From contig NZ_FNCA01000006.1 in the NCBI RefSeq assembly GCF_900100715.1, positions 80,276 through 144,275 on the forward strand: a stretch of DNA of 64,000 bases, given 5' to 3'. This DNA is from Methanolobus vulcani. GTDB lineage: Archaea > Halobacteriota > Methanosarcinia > Methanosarcinales > Methanosarcinaceae. A model generated the notes under the pieces. It had not been told where the DNA came from, ran no database searches, and saw only the letters and a program-made list of their open reading frames with translations. Shown here piece by piece: positions 26,543-32,883 of this stretch (position 1 is its first letter; the number at the start of each line of letters is the position of its first letter). The position numbers and the translations under genes were made by a program.

Positions 26543-26709
26543 TTATTCCTCTAATGCAATCATTTAATGTTCCTGAAGAACTTGTGATAGAGATTTGTGT
26601 TACCAGTATTTATTGCTTTATCCTTCATTATACATATTCTAAGGCATCTTGCACAACTCAACTTGAATAGTTTAATATAGCTCCTGTGCGTAACCACCTG
26701 TTGATAAGT

Positions 26710-28200
26710 GTGTACCGAAAAAATTTTCCACTTCATTTGAAGCATTATTTGCTTGCACTTCAGGCAAAGAAACACGGCGGGAGGACTCATGAACTGGCAA
26801 TGAGATTCAACGGTGCCGAATCAGATATTCTTGATTTCAGTTCCAACACGAATCCTCTTGGCACACCGTTCGATTTTCAGGCAAGTAACCTTGACCTGAA
26901 ACAGGTTGTTTTGAGATCAACAGAAAGAATAGAGCAGTATCCTGACAACAGATATTTTGAACTCAGGCAGGCTGCAGCTGCTTATCTAGGTACTAACATC
27001 TCTGCAGATAATATAATTCCCGGAAACGGTACATGTGAACTCTTGCGTCTGATCATGGAAACCGTTGTCAATGAAGAGGACATTGTAATTCTTGCTTCAC
27101 CTTCATCCGGTGAGTATCGTCATATAGCAGAGGTTTTCGGAGCACGTATTCATTCTTTTACTACCGATGAATTGTTAAACCTTCCAAAAATGACATTGGA
27201 CAGGGCAAAGGTCATTGTCATTGGTAATCCGAATAATCCTACCGGCCAGCTCATACTTAAGGATGAAATTTCTGATTTTGCGCAAAAATGTGCTGAACAT
27301 TGTACTCTACTTATTGTTGATGAATCAGCAATTGAACTGGTTGATCCTGATATGAGTATTGCTGAAATGGCACTTGACAATGAGTTCCTCTTTATAATAA
27401 GGTCGGTATCCAACATTACAGCCATGCCAGGTATCAGACTGGCATACGGAATTGCTTCCCTTCATCTTGCAAACATACTCAATTCTGCACGTCTTTCATG
27501 GAATATTGGTGTAACGGACGAAGCCATAGGTTTAGCGTTCCTGAGCATGGAAGGTGGTCCTCACAGTGAATATCTTAGAAGGTCCCGGGAGTTCATTAAA
27601 AATGAGAGGGAATACATGGTCAAACGCTTCTCAGGTATCTATGGTTTCGATCCTGTTGAAAGTAATACTAACTATATACTTATTGACGTGAAAGATCTGT
27701 TCCTGGATTCATTAAGACTTAGCGAAGGATTGGCTCTGCATGGCATATTGATACGTGAATGCAGTGATTTCTTTGATGGAAATAAGCGATATGTGAGAAT
27801 ATCAGTCCGTATGAGGGAGGATTTTGAAAAACTGATACACACCCTTGATGTTGTCTTTGCTGAAACCAGCAGAGAAGACGCAAGGGAAAAACTTGAAGAG
27901 ACCATTGAACACGGTGGTAGTTCCTGTGCCGGCCGTGGTACCTGTGAATATTATCCCTGCCATTTTACAGGGCAGGATTGCACTTTCTGTTTCTGTCCTT
28001 TCTATGCATGTGAGGAAGAGCTGACAGGAGGTAAATGGATAGAAAGCTCCACCGGAGGGCAGGTGTGGAGTTGTGAACATTGTACTTTATTGCATAGACC
28101 AAAGGTCGCCAAAATGGTGCTTGATGCGCTGATGGCCGACGGAGACACTGATGATAATATAAGGAGGGCATGGAAGGAAATCATTGAGCCTCTGCTTTGA
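26710..28200 (+). CDS. CobD-like protein, copy 1, lacking the PLP lysine (probable pseudoenzyme or altered function)
   Basis: About 496 residues with the class I/II aminotransferase fold of threonine-phosphate decarboxylase CobD plus a C-terminal cysteine-rich extension (CEYYPCHFTGQDCTFCFCPF, then VWSCEHC) as in methanogen CobD. Compared with copy 2 downstream, the Schiff-base lysine in SLTKSFAIPG is Asn here (codon 27412-27414, SVSNITAMPG), DEAY has become DESA, and the aromatic residue of PRPTFSEY is Ser (SPSSGEY). The NPNNPTG and late Arg motifs remain. PLP catalysis is therefore unlikely, while the tail is intact. I place the start at GTG 26710 because a TATA-like element (about 26668-26677) lies too close to the earlier GTG at 26686. 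It heads the corrinoid operon. Confidence 0.8.
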   Translation: MYRKNFPLHLKHYLLALQAKKHGGRTHELAMRFNGAESDILDFSSNTNPLGTPFDFQASNLDLKQVVLRSTERIEQYPDNRYFELRQAAAAYLGTNISADNIIPGNGTCELLRLIMETVVNEEDIVILASPSSGEYRHIAEVFGARIHSFTTDELLNLPKMTLDRAKVIVIGNPNNPTGQLILKDEISDFAQKCAEHCTLLIVDESAIELVDPDMSIAEMALDNEFLFIIRSVSNITAMPGIRLAYGIASLHLANILNSARLSWNIGVTDEAIGLAFLSMEGGPHSEYLRRSREFIKNEREYMVKRFSGIYGFDPVESNTNYILIDVKDLFLDSLRLSEGLALHGILIRECSDFFDGNKRYVRISVRMREDFEKLIHTLDVVFAETSREDAREKLEETIEHGGSSCAGRGTCEYYPCHFTGQDCTFCFCPFYACEEELTGGKWIESSTGGQVWSCEHCTLLHRPKVAKMVLDALMADGDTDDNIRRAWKEIIEPLL

Positions 28201-28252
28201 TTCTGCGAAGATCAATTGAGCAGGTCAATAGATTTCATGTTTTCTACATGCT

Positions 28253-29755
28253 TTGATTATTGTGACAGACCAAAGACCACATCTTCCGGTAAAGAAATAT
28301 CTTCTAAGCCTTGAACCATGTGTACATGGTGGACTGATAAGAAAAAGTTCCCAGAAATACGGCATTCCTGAATCAGATATCCTGGATGCAAGTGCAAGTC
28401 TTAATCCCTTAGGAACCCCTTTTGACCAGCCGGATCCTGAGCTGGACCTGCAGGACCTTTTGGATAAAGGCCTTGAAAAACTTGAGCAGTACCCGGATAA
28501 CCGTTATCTTGAATATCGAACGGCTGCAGCAGAATTTGTGGGAATGGGAATGACATATGAGAACATCATTCCCGGAAACGGTTCAACTGAGATTATACGA
28601 CTGGTGGCAGAGTGCGTAGTAGCTGAAGGCGATGTTGTACTAATTCCAAGACCTACTTTCAGTGAATATGAATTGCAATGCAGTGTCATGGGTGCCAGTA
28701 TAAAGTATATCGAGCAGGATGATATTTTTAACCTTGAGGATGAGCTTCTTGCCGAAGCTAAGATCCTTTTTGTGTGCAACCCAAATAACCCAACGGGGAA
28801 ATTGTTCAAAAAAGAGAAAATGGAGAAACTTGCAGAACAATGTGCAGCCCAGAAGACAATACTCTTTGTGGATGAGGCCTATATAGAACTGGCAGAACCG
28901 GAGCAGAGTGTTGCTTATCTTGTGGAGGATAATGATTATCTTTTCATTCAGCGTTCCTTAACGAAATCTTTTGCAATTCCCGGGATCAGAATGGGTTTTG
29001 GAGTTGCTTCTTCAAAATTTGCATGTGTGCTTAACAATGCAAGACTTTCCTGGAACATGGGATGTGTTTCAGATACAATTGCTACAGCTCTCTTGAGTAT
29101 GAAAGGCGGTGTGAACAGCAAATATCTGCTGGATTCAAGGGCTTTCATAGCGCAAGAACGCGATTTTCTTATGAGTAAACTATCTCGCAGGGGGTTCAAG
29201 CCTGCAGAGAGCTGTGTTAATTACATTTATGTAGATATTACTGATCTGTCGCTCAATTCATCCGAACTTGCAGAAAGAATGGCATCACATGGTGTTCTTA
29301 TTCGTGACTGCAATTCTTTCCAGAACAATGGCAAGAATCATATAAGGGTGGCAATACGCACAAGAGAGGAGAATGAGCGTATTGCAGATACAGTACGTCA
29401 GGTAATATATGAATGGGGCAGGGAACAGGCTGAGATGCAGCTTCATGAAAATATAAAAGTAGCTGCAGAATGCGGACGCAAAGGAAGTAACACTGACTGT
29501 GACTATTATCCATGTCATTTCAAAGGACAGGATTGTACTTTCTGCTTCTGTCCCTTCTATCCATGCGAGGATAGTCGTACAGGTGGAAACTGGATAGAAA
29601 GCTCAAGCGGTGGTCAGGTATGGAGCTGTCTTAATTGCAATATAGTTCATGAGGAAAAGATAGTTGATGACCTGTTATCTGTCTTTGTTGGCGAAGGTCT
29701 TAACGATGAAAGTATCAGAAAAGCGTGGAAGGAAGTAATGGAGCTCAATCTATGA
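28253..29755 (+). CDS. cobD: L-threonine-O-3-phosphate decarboxylase, probably with kinase-type C-terminal domain
   Basis: 500 residues. The PLP-dependent fold is complete: NPNNPTG, VDEAYIEL, Schiff-base Lys at codon 28964-28966 in SLTKSFAIPGIRMGFG, and the late Arg in HIRVAIRTRE. It makes the (R)-1-aminopropan-2-ol phosphate linker of cobamides. The C-terminal region (about 415-500) has the cysteine-rich pattern CDYYPCHFKGQDCTFCFCPF. The Methanosarcina mazei homologue with such a tail has been reported as a bifunctional L-threonine kinase/decarboxylase; that is prior knowledge, not shown here. The start is uncertain: TTG 28253 and GTG 28262 are candidates. Its stop overlaps the cbiB start by 4 bp. 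Confidence 0.88.
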   Translation: MIIVTDQRPHLPVKKYLLSLEPCVHGGLIRKSSQKYGIPESDILDASASLNPLGTPFDQPDPELDLQDLLDKGLEKLEQYPDNRYLEYRTAAAEFVGMGMTYENIIPGNGSTEIIRLVAECVVAEGDVVLIPRPTFSEYELQCSVMGASIKYIEQDDIFNLEDELLAEAKILFVCNPNNPTGKLFKKEKMEKLAEQCAAQKTILFVDEAYIELAEPEQSVAYLVEDNDYLFIQRSLTKSFAIPGIRMGFGVASSKFACVLNNARLSWNMGCVSDTIATALLSMKGGVNSKYLLDSRAFIAQERDFLMSKLSRRGFKPAESCVNYIYVDITDLSLNSSELAERMASHGVLIRDCNSFQNNGKNHIRVAIRTREENERIADTVRQVIYEWGREQAEMQLHENIKVAAECGRKGSNTDCDYYPCHFKGQDCTFCFCPFYPCEDSRTGGNWIESSSGGQVWSCLNCNIVHEEKIVDDLLSVFVGEGLNDESIRKAWKEVMELNL

Positions 29756-30729
29756 TCCTGCCTTCGGTACAGGCAAATCCAGGCGAACTGGTAATAGTAT
29801 TACTTTTAGCCTATGCTCTAGACCTTGTGTTCTGCGAGCCTCCCTTTGCAATCCATCCTGTTGTCTGGATGGGCAGATTGATAGGCTTCTTCAAAAAGAA
29901 CATTCCTGAGAACAATCGCAAGCTTTACGGAATATTTATTGGCCTTACTACGATACTTTTCGGATGTACTATTGCCTATCTTGTAATGTTATTCATGGGT
30001 ATTGAGTCCATTCCGGCAGTTCTTCGTTATCTGGTGGCTGCTTATTTCCTTAAGGCAACATTTGCCATTCGCTGTCTTTACGGTGCAGCCAATGAAGTAA
30101 GGACTGAACTTGATGCTGGTAAACTTGACAGCGCCAGGCAGAAACTTTCAATGTATGTGAGCCGCAATACGTCAAAACTGGAAGAGGGCCAGGTATCTTC
30201 AGCAATTATCGAGACAACTTCTGAGAACTATGTAGATGGAATACTTTCCCCCCTTTTGTTCTATGCATGTTTCGGGCCTTACGGACTCATAGCAGCATAT
30301 GTATTCAAAGCTACAAGTACACTGGATTCAATGGTAGGATATAAAGACGAGCGTCACCGTGAAGTGGGCTGGTTCTCTGCCAAGTTCGATGATGTACTTA
30401 ATTGGATACCTGCACGTCTGTCTGTGATTTTCCTTTCAGCTGCAACTCTTGTTGTGAGTCTCGCTTATCGTAAGGTCAAGATACCGGACTACAGGACAGC
30501 TTTTAAAACAGGTATCAGGGACGGATTAAAAACACCATCTCCAAATTCCGGTTTTCCAATGGCTTCCGTTGCAGGTGCTCTGAAAATAAAACTGGAAAAA
30601 CCGAATACCTATGTTCTGGGTGATGGCTTTGCTTACCCGGTGTCGGAGGATATCAAACTTACATCCTGGATTATCCTTGTGGCATCGTTCTTTGCTATCA
30701 TCGTATCTTCACTTACAATTATACTATAG
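29752..30729 (+). CDS. cbiB: Adenosylcobinamide-phosphate synthase CbiB
   Basis: 325-residue polytopic membrane protein that attaches the aminopropanol phosphate to adenosylcobyric acid. Family motifs are DLVFCEPPFAIHPVVWMGRL near the N-terminus, SENYVDGILSPLLFYACFGP in the middle, YVFKATSTLDSMVGYKDERH, and TPSPNSGFPMASVAGALKI. The ATG at 29752 overlaps the cobD stop (ATGA) and follows GGAAG, so it is preferred over an upstream in-frame GTG. It uses the product of the preceding cobD, giving a direct pathway link. Confidence 0.95.
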   Translation: MILPSVQANPGELVIVLLLAYALDLVFCEPPFAIHPVVWMGRLIGFFKKNIPENNRKLYGIFIGLTTILFGCTIAYLVMLFMGIESIPAVLRYLVAAYFLKATFAIRCLYGAANEVRTELDAGKLDSARQKLSMYVSRNTSKLEEGQVSSAIIETTSENYVDGILSPLLFYACFGPYGLIAAYVFKATSTLDSMVGYKDERHREVGWFSAKFDDVLNWIPARLSVIFLSAATLVVSLAYRKVKIPDYRTAFKTGIRDGLKTPSPNSGFPMASVAGALKIKLEKPNTYVLGDGFAYPVSEDIKLTSWIILVASFFAIIVSSLTIIL

Positions 30730-30851
30730 CTATGTTGAAAGCTAATTAATGACCACAGTCTGATATTAATGTCTAAGAATTGAAATCCAGAAATATAACG
30801 ATCAAATCTCAAACAACAATATTATAAAGAAATCTCCCCGAAGTGATGGCA

Positions 30852-31442
30852 ATGAAATTATCGGATATAGAATCAAAAGACCTGAAAAAGAACCAGTCAA
30901 AAGAACTGGAAGGTGAGATCACCAGGGATATAATCGAGATCCTTGAAGAGGAAGGAATAACAGTTCAGATGCTTGTTGATGCTGCACTTGAGCTCTATGC
31001 TCCCCATCCGGGTATAGAAACAAAAGAACTTGCAGAGGAAAAGTTCCTCAGAGAACTTGATATTGCAGTATCCGATCCGAATCTCTGTCTTCTTATCTAT
31101 TCCGGTATCTTACTTGAAAAAGAAGGTAGAGAAGGCCGCTTACCTAATATAAGCAGAAGTTCTTACGAAAAGGATCTTACATTCATTATCGCAGATGAGG
31201 TGCTTGGTATGAGTATTTCTAAATATATCAGTGGTGACAAAGGAATGTTTGAGTTCGTACGATTTGACAAACAAAAACCAGGTATTCTTGCTGAACTTGG
31301 ACCTTTCATGGATGACATTATAGGTGGTCTAATTGGCGGAGTGTCTGCCAACATGTACACAAGAGCAATGGCAGAAGCTGCTGAAAAAGCTAAAAAGAAG
31401 AAAACAGACCCTGAAAACAAAAGTGATGTGATAGCAGGATGA
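30852..31442 (+). CDS. cobZ: Alpha-ribazole phosphatase CobZ (PgpA-related)
   Basis: About 196 residues, related to bacterial phosphatidylglycerophosphatase A. CobZ is the archaeal non-orthologous replacement of CobC, removing the phosphate from alpha-ribazole-5'-phosphate or the late cobamide phosphate. The C-terminal segment MDDIIGGLIGGVSANMYTRA is a conserved glycine-rich part. It lies between cbiB and cobS; its stop overlaps the cobS start by 4 bp. I prefer the ATG at 30852 with GTGAT just upstream; GTG 30843 and ATG 30846 are in frame. The 110-bp gap after cbiB could hold a secondary promoter. Confidence 0.85.
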   Translation: MKLSDIESKDLKKNQSKELEGEITRDIIEILEEEGITVQMLVDAALELYAPHPGIETKELAEEKFLRELDIAVSDPNLCLLIYSGILLEKEGREGRLPNISRSSYEKDLTFIIADEVLGMSISKYISGDKGMFEFVRFDKQKPGILAELGPFMDDIIGGLIGGVSANMYTRAMAEAAEKAKKKKTDPENKSDVIAG

Positions 31443-32260
31443 ACGGATTCTTATTAGCTCTCAGATCCAGTTTCGGATTCCTTTCAACAATTCCTGTAGG
31501 AATTACAATGGAAGGACTTGATGAGTTCTTCAAGAGAACATACCTGCATCTGGTAGTTGGAATTGTCCTTGGGTTATTGATGGGTGCAGTTGCATATATT
31601 TTGATAAGTTATTTGCCGATCAACATTGCCGCTGTGTTTGTAATAGTTTTCGTCTACTATATTACAGGACTGAACCATCTTGATGGAATGGCCGACCTTG
31701 GTGACGGTCTGACTGCACATGGGTCTGTGGAAAAGAAACTCAAAGCACTGAAGGATATGTCCCTTGGAATAGGCGGCGTTGCCTACGCATCTCTTATTAT
31801 TATTGCATTCTATGCAACTCTTGTGGCACTTAATGAGCAGTCTTTAATTGTATACTCATCTGCTGCCGATGTGGCAAGAATCTTTTTCTTTGCGATGTTC
31901 GTGTCAGAGATAAGTGCCATGCAGTCCATGCTGACAGTTGCTGCATTTGGCAAGTCCATACACGAAGGGCTTGGATCAATACTCATCAAGAATACCACAG
32001 TACCTAAATATCTTATAGGATTTGTAATTGGTATTGTTGCCTGTGTCGCAATGTCATTTTACCTGGGTTTCGGTATAACAGGTATTATTCCTTTCATTGC
32101 AGCTATATTCGCAACCTTTATTTTGCTAAATATCAGTAACAGGCATTTTGGTGGTGTTAATGGTGATGTTATCGGTGCTTCCAATGAGGTTGGAAGGATA
32201 ATCGCACTTATCGCTGTAACATTGGTATTGATGTATGGAGGTATTGTTTGGACGCTATAA
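31439..32260 (+). CDS. cobS: Adenosylcobinamide-GDP ribazoletransferase (cobalamin synthase) CobS
   Basis: 273-residue membrane protein that joins adenosylcobinamide-GDP and alpha-ribazole to complete the cobamide. The CobS motif GLNHLDGMADLGDGL with its metal-binding Asp residues is present near residue 80, followed by several membrane segments and NRHFGGVNGDVIGASNE near the C-terminus. Start and stop overlap both neighbours (4 bp with cobZ, 13 bp with cobY), showing translational coupling. Confidence 0.96.
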   Translation: MNGFLLALRSSFGFLSTIPVGITMEGLDEFFKRTYLHLVVGIVLGLLMGAVAYILISYLPINIAAVFVIVFVYYITGLNHLDGMADLGDGLTAHGSVEKKLKALKDMSLGIGGVAYASLIIIAFYATLVALNEQSLIVYSSAADVARIFFFAMFVSEISAMQSMLTVAAFGKSIHEGLGSILIKNTTVPKYLIGFVIGIVACVAMSFYLGFGITGIIPFIAAIFATFILLNISNRHFGGVNGDVIGASNEVGRIIALIAVTLVLMYGGIVWTL

Positions 32261-32883
32261 TAATGGCCGGGGGTTTTGGAAGCAGGTTAGGTATGGGGGA
32301 AAAACCCTGTGTCGATCTACTTGGAAAGCCTCTGATATCATATGTGATCGATGCGCTGCAAAAAACAGAAAGTATAGGTGATATCTATGTTGCCGTATCT
32401 CCGGCAACACCTAAAACCGCATCTTTTGTGGAAGAAGAGTATGAAGGGAAGGTGCAGGTAATTCCGACAGGTGGTGGCAACTATGTTGGTGACATGGTCT
32501 ATGCAGTAAAAGTTGCCTGTATAAGCGACCCTTTAATGATACTTATGTCAGATCTACCTTTGTTAACTCCTGCTCTTCTTGAAAAGGTAATTGCTGAATA
32601 CAAGACATGTGGTAAACCTGCTATGTCTATATTCTCTCCGATATCCGTTTGTAAAAGCCTTGGCATAAGGCCGGATACGGTGTTCAACTGGGGCGGTGAA
32701 GGAAAGCTGATAGTTCCTTCTGGTGTCAATATAATGGACGGTAAAGATGTTGATCATGAGCAGGAATATGTCAGTCTTGTGATGGAAGATGTTGAATTTG
32801 CTCTTAATATCAATACGGTCGATGACCTCAAAAAATGCAAAGAGATGATCCTTGAGCGTGATGTCAGGTCAATTAAGAATTAG
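32248..32883 (+). CDS. cobY: GTP:adenosylcobinamide-phosphate guanylyltransferase CobY
   Basis: 211 residues, nucleotidyltransferase (GT-A) fold with the N-terminal signature IIMAGGFGSRLGMGEKPCVDL and the metal-binding region LMILMSDLPLL. CobY is the archaeal non-orthologous replacement of bacterial CobU and makes adenosylcobinamide-GDP, the substrate of CobS encoded just before it. It starts with TTG at 32248, inside the end of cobS. It is the last gene of the operon; a possible small-RNA unit follows. Confidence 0.95.
   Translation: MDAIIMAGGFGSRLGMGEKPCVDLLGKPLISYVIDALQKTESIGDIYVAVSPATPKTASFVEEEYEGKVQVIPTGGGNYVGDMVYAVKVACISDPLMILMSDLPLLTPALLEKVIAEYKTCGKPAMSIFSPISVCKSLGIRPDTVFNWGGEGKLIVPSGVNIMDGKDVDHEQEYVSLVMEDVEFALNINTVDDLKKCKEMILERDVRSIKN

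Follow-up and report, generated by a model that had tools for sequence, protein, structure and literature searches.

A maintained CobD paralog without the PLP lysine precedes a complete CobD at the head of a cobamide gene array in Methanolobus vulcani

The closest described relatives of the genes considered here are the CobD proteins of Methanosarcina mazei and Salmonella enterica. The titles of two reports on the M. mazei protein (Tavares 2018, 2019, titles in PMC9986279) present it as a bifunctional L-threonine kinase and L-threonine-phosphate (Thr-P) decarboxylase with metallocentres. Methanosarcina CobDs, including M. mazei MM2060, share with the two Methanolobus genes a fold-type I head, a Cys-rich PF04071 tail and a slot before cbiB-cobZ-cobS-cobY; copy 2 matches all of their active-site motifs, whereas copy 1 is without the PLP lysine and the ring pocket, and Methanosarcina genomes carry one CobD only versus two in Methanolobus. 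The copy 1 model has Salmonella CobD (PDB 1LC5/1LC7/1LC8/1LKC) among its nearest experimental structures (TM by target 0.87-0.88), and the two have the Thr-P anchors in common; the Salmonella protein differs from copy 1 in that K216, F108, A187, F188 and T215 are all replaced in the latter, which also has the extra tail, at an overall identity of 25%. We know of no explanation of how archaeal proteins of the aminotransferase fold phosphorylate L-threonine.

In the window, the 64,000-nucleotide stretch of M. vulcani DNA that was analysed, two tandem CobD genes (copy 1, then copy 2) head an operon-like array that continues with the remaining nucleotide-loop assembly genes, cbiB-cobZ-cobS-cobY, all on the + strand. 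The features are as follows.

26650..26709, + strand: conserved promoter block before copy 1, from comparison of loci, with the TATA-like TTTAATATA at 26671-26679, ~33 nt before the GTG
26710..28200, + strand: copy 1, predicted PLP-dead CobD paralog, 496 aa, GTG start, frame intact (ORF, alignment, tree, AF2 model)
27106..27108, + strand: Ser133 of copy 1 in place of the PLP-stacking Phe of the PTF motif (F108 of Salmonella CobD), by alignment
27319..27330, + strand: DESA of copy 1 in place of DEA[FY] (DEAY); Ala187 to Ser on the other face of the PLP ring, by alignment
27412..27414, + strand: Asn235 of copy 1 (codon AAC) in place of the Schiff-base Lys (K216 of Salmonella CobD), by alignment
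27937..28137, + strand: Cys-rich, zinc-finger-like tail of copy 1 with every Cys present (PF04071 match)
28253..29755, + strand: copy 2, CobD with Lys (AAA, 28964-28966), start probably the GTG at 28262 (ORF, alignment, profile match)
29483..29680, + strand: Cys-rich tail of copy 2 (PF04071 match)
29752..30729, + strand: cbiB, start overlapping the copy 2 stop codon (ATGA) (PF03186, E 7e-87)
30843..31442, + strand: cobZ, alpha-ribazole phosphatase (TIGR03161, above cut-off)
31439..32260, + strand: cobS (PF02654)
32248..32883, + strand: cobY-like guanylyltransferase (TIGR00454 / NF045495, below cut-off)

As the first-pass annotation had described, the two copies aligned along their full length, tail included, at 46% identity, and profile searches placed an Aminotran_1_2 head and a PF04071 tail in both, with the copy 1 tail matching at E 8.5e-24 (83.7 bits; cut-off 27). 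Against TIGR01140, the NCBIfam profile for CobD (L-threonine-O-3-phosphate decarboxylase, EC 4.1.1.81; curated cut-off 290.55), copy 1 scored 234 bits and copy 2 289.6 bits, both falling below the cut-off, copy 2 just. The active-site changes named in that annotation were likewise recovered: AAC at 27412-27414 in copy 1 stands against AAA at 28964-28966 in copy 2, DEAY has become DESA and the PLP-stacking aromatic residue Ser, while the NPNNPTG loop and the late arginine (R349, R363 of copy 1) are present and the frame is open through 496 codons.

Two tail-bearing CobD genes were found in 27/27 Methanolobus genomes and in 6/6 genomes of the sister genus g11, which is probably Methanomethylovorans by our assumption, so that the copy 1 alignment comprised 33 rows (27 from Methanolobus, i.e. 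the window genome and 26 others, and 6 from g11). The Schiff-base Lys was absent from all 33 (N24, H6, R1, D1, G1) and present in 112/112 other CobD rows. The expectation that orthologs would be found with Asn at this site was thus borne out as to the missing Lys and in only 24 of the 33 as to the Asn; because the replacing residue varies, the site is better described as Lys-free than as selected for Asn, and with 33 orthologs devoid of Lys a sequence error at this codon was ruled out. The F108 site held P, S or A in every copy 1 row and F in each of the 112 others, and the Ala187 site Ser in 33/33 as opposed to Ala in 112/112, with S or T in other Lys-less CobDs. On the best reading of this alignment, copy 1 would be without what known PLP chemistry needs and unable to decarboxylate. 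In quick PMSF trees copy 1 formed a single clade (SH-aLRT 99) with a branching pattern parallel to that of copy 2, so vertical inheritance from before the Methanolobus/g11 split is most likely. The only interrupted copy 1 (L042 4010-4060; = G125, L021) has TGA and TAG at approximately codons 17 and 20 and is open over the rest. A third, very divergent Lys-less CobD, the Cys motif again present, was seen in one Methanolobus genome and one g11 genome (L165, L164); such copies, with the Cys-rich tail, lie outside the cob operon at L173 9660-11168 (G137) and L174 7441-8886 (G143).

The loss of the PLP site was accompanied by retention of the presumed contacts for the phosphate and carboxylate of Thr-P. 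In Salmonella numbering, Y56, R337 and N34 were kept in 33/33 copy 1 rows and H8 in 31/33, R323 was Arg in 29 and Lys in 4, and S213 and D185 were each kept in 33/33; copy 2 retained H8 and Y56 in 32/32. The roles of these residues, including those of H8, Y56, N34, R323 and R337 as Thr-P anchors, are presumed here from general knowledge of CobD and of fold-type I enzymes (Y70*, R386, S255 and D222 of AAT). The fold of copy 1 is predicted to be intact: the single-chain AF2 model had a mean pLDDT of 84.9 over the whole chain and a pTM of 0.76, with a confident head and residues 402-427 without usable confidence, and its first three PDB matches were Salmonella CobD entries (1lc7, 1lkc and 1lc8), plant HisC entries scoring nearly equal.

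Selection on the two copies was compared by dN/dS under a codon model (GY+F3X4, IQ-TREE). Among the seven closest species copy 1 had a value of 0.108 and copy 2 one of 0.054, and a larger set gave 0.118 and 0.071, respectively; the tail was the most constrained part of copy 1 (0.044 and 0.058 in the two sets). When only positions that do not vary in other CobDs were counted, the copy 1 head had lost 23 of 102 and its tail 0 of 31 (Fisher p 0.002). In copy 2 all 102 of these head positions were retained, and the three C-terminal columns scored as lost in it come mostly from loci that end within the sequence read. The head of copy 1 therefore evolves under looser constraint than that of copy 2, yet well short of neutrality, and the loss falls on one copy. 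Copy 1 is kept by selection, not decaying, and is intact in every genome examined but one; the earlier suggestion that it is maintained agrees with a dN/dS of ~0.11, intact frames in 32/33 and the presence of all tail cysteines. The accompanying proposal that corrinoid linker synthesis is split over the two proteins was not supported as worded: a reciprocal loss in copy 2 was sought across the 102 invariant head positions and none was found, so there is no sign that copy 2 has surrendered a kinase half.

Upstream of copy 1, the conserved block was near-invariant in the Methanolobus copy 1 loci compared and had no match in Rfam. A search of the organism's own genome for a regulon sharing the copy 1 promoter motif returned a single exact match to CAACTNNACTTGAATA, at the copy 1 site itself, and a shared regulon was rejected on that basis. 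A further TATA-like element lies in the 52 nt that separate the copies, ahead of copy 2; most copy 2 genes have one there, the element in the window being the weak CAATAGATTT. In window positions 28201-28261 and the equivalent gap at loci L010-L024, a TATA-like GGTTAATATATTTCCTG precedes copy 2 in many Methanolobus and is degenerate in the window genome. Because each copy has a separate TATA-like element, separate expression is possible, and the two may be expressed separately.

A second lineage of Lys-less CobD was found in Methanohalophilus (g10), where 8/8 genomes encode a CobD with D, N, T or Y at the lysine site (L169 10059-11537; L171 9637-11109; L170 10024-11502; L223; L224). Wherever the surroundings were read, this gene lies directly before cbiB-cobZ-cobS-cobY, and the active CobD is located ~20-26 kb from it. 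The Methanohalophilus copies clustered not with Methanolobus copy 1 but with the Lys-bearing CobD-B of Methanococcoides, which occupies the same operon slot, and this grouping had an SH-aLRT of 99-100 with any representative. Constraining all dead copies to one clade gave a p-AU of 0.049, so that a single origin, although disfavoured by this value together with the CobD-B grouping, is rejected only marginally; two origins are likely rather than certain, and the Methanohalophilus Lys-less CobD probably arose separately. This dead copy had lost 42/102 head positions, H8 and Y56 among them, and 0/31 tail positions, and its dN/dS was 0.21 versus 0.14 for the active copy. Of 93 invariant columns in the head, the Methanolobus/g11 lineage had lost 22 and Methanohalophilus 37, with 14 lost by the two alike (hypergeometric p 0.009), the common losses falling mainly in PLP-pocket motifs, with Ala187 replaced by Ser in every row of both. 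Since H8 and Y56 are missing, the argument from the retained pocket does not reach the Methanohalophilus copies. A separate CobD duplication with Lys in both copies was observed in Methanococcoides (L055, L058, L136) and in g3 (L060); the two Lys-bearing copies of Methanococcoides are separated by a cobY-like gene, and at L056 6303-7810 and L162/L166 (G098) CobD-B is split into two overlapping frames.

Our preferred reading, to which we assign a probability of about 0.4, is that selection maintains copy 1 as a PLP-dead CobD, which would no longer decarboxylate, would hold threonine or Thr-P, and is most likely an L-threonine kinase or a Thr-P-handling companion of copy 2. Having lost the Schiff-base residue and the pocket walls around the PLP ring, copy 1 would still bind L-threonine or Thr-P, as its kept anchors suggest, and would act as a kinase or as a companion feeding copy 2, which would decarboxylate Thr-P before CbiB attaches the linker. 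A search limited to PduX-type kinases found none among the four GHMP proteins of the genome, and a dedicated enzyme of that type was ruled out among the four by their family matches: mevalonate kinase, archaeal shikimate kinase, pantoate kinase (best match, below cut-off) and beta-RFAP synthase. Given this and the bifunctionality described for M. mazei, the role that needs the fewest assumptions is that of a kinase or of a companion that handles the substrate. Against it, no invariant head position is missing from copy 2, which would probably leave the cell with the kinase even in the absence of copy 1, and the changes at N157 (10/33 copy 1 rows) and R224 (6/33) would also tell against such a role. 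Of the role originally put forward for copy 1, the loss of PLP chemistry with retention of phosphate- and carboxylate-pocket residues stood, a kinase, a phosphate-binding or a partner function is possible, and the division of activities between two proteins found no support.

Fold-type I active sites are shared between subunits, and a less probable but serious possibility is that copy 1 forms mixed dimers as a non-catalytic subunit that regulates or activates copy 2 and could supply H8' and Y56' to the copy 2 site. The genes are adjacent, copy 1 keeps the residues that reach into a partner's site (Y56 33/33, H8 31/33) and loses the PLP residues of its own, and the lack of reciprocal loss in copy 2 is what a helper would predict. 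Precedents exist in LCB1 (SPTLC1), a subunit without the PLP lysine that pairs with LCB2 in serine palmitoyltransferase (PMC3794620), and in the catalytically dead paralog of deoxyhypusine synthase (PMC3663545). LCB1 is, like copy 1, a Lys-less paralog of an active PLP enzyme. The LCB1-like pattern of lost Lys and kept partner-reaching residues is seen in copy 1 but fails in Methanohalophilus, whose dead copy is without both H8 and Y56 and whose active CobD is encoded ~20-26 kb off. In addition, copy 2 keeps in 32/32 the trans-acting residues that reach the dead site of copy 1, which an obligate heterodimer would free; thus an obligate heterodimer is less likely and, by comparison with LCB1, not indicated.

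The Cys-rich domain also occurs apart from CobD heads. In a different family of the phylum, a stand-alone gene for a 122-aa PF04071 protein (L219 2457-2825) directly precedes cbiB and overlaps its beginning, and in other Halobacteriota PF04071 forms fusions with CbiZ (amidohydrolase) or with a GDPD phosphodiesterase (L210 1777-2703, L211 2766-3689, L214 2712-3737, L217 2105-3145); several of these proteins are encoded in or near cobamide genes, and unlike copy 1 they have no CobD head. Such occurrences, together with the 0/31 tail positions lost in each dead lineage, fit an explanation in which the head is a mere scaffold and the gene is kept for a metal-binding tail, a module of the cobamide pathway that would cooperate with CbiB or some other protein (as a metal cluster, for docking or in redox control), but the head dN/dS of ~0.11 in Methanolobus and the pocket residues kept in 33/33 exceed what a spacer needs, and we regard this as improbable. 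It is somewhat more improbable still that the emptied pocket has taken on a ligand or reaction with no link to Thr-P, such as the sensing of a pathway intermediate; Ala187 to Ser and Ala339 to Ser are common in both dead lineages, but Ala-to-Ser exchange is common anyway and the Thr-P anchors are kept. Least credible is a redundant duplicate in simple decay, to which the higher dN/dS of copy 1 (0.11 vs 0.05) and the two N-terminal nonsense codons in the G125/L042 copy might be attributed. Each of the 27 Methanolobus and 6 g11 genomes retains copy 1, at amino-acid identities as low as 48%, with 32/33 intact frames, all tail cysteines and a conserved promoter; retention, 33 orthologs and low dN/dS refute decay for the clade as a whole, and only the G125 copy could be decaying.

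The Lys-less CobDs of Methanolobus and Methanohalophilus are probably functional 'dead-enzyme' relatives that have taken on another task, and the label 'threonine-phosphate decarboxylase' would then misname roughly half of the copies in Methanolobus, g11 and Methanohalophilus. In the literature searched, no paper pairs CobD with a pseudoenzyme. We consider it possible, at a little short of even odds, that methylotrophic methanogens twice independently evolved a PLP-dead CobD for cobamide linker synthesis, either a PLP-free aminotransferase-fold L-threonine kinase or an activating subunit. CobD would be added to the few PLP enzymes for which maintained Lys-less paralogs are known, and copy 1, in which the PLP site is gone while the substrate pocket and the metal tail are kept, would be a natural separation-of-function protein for locating the kinase site.
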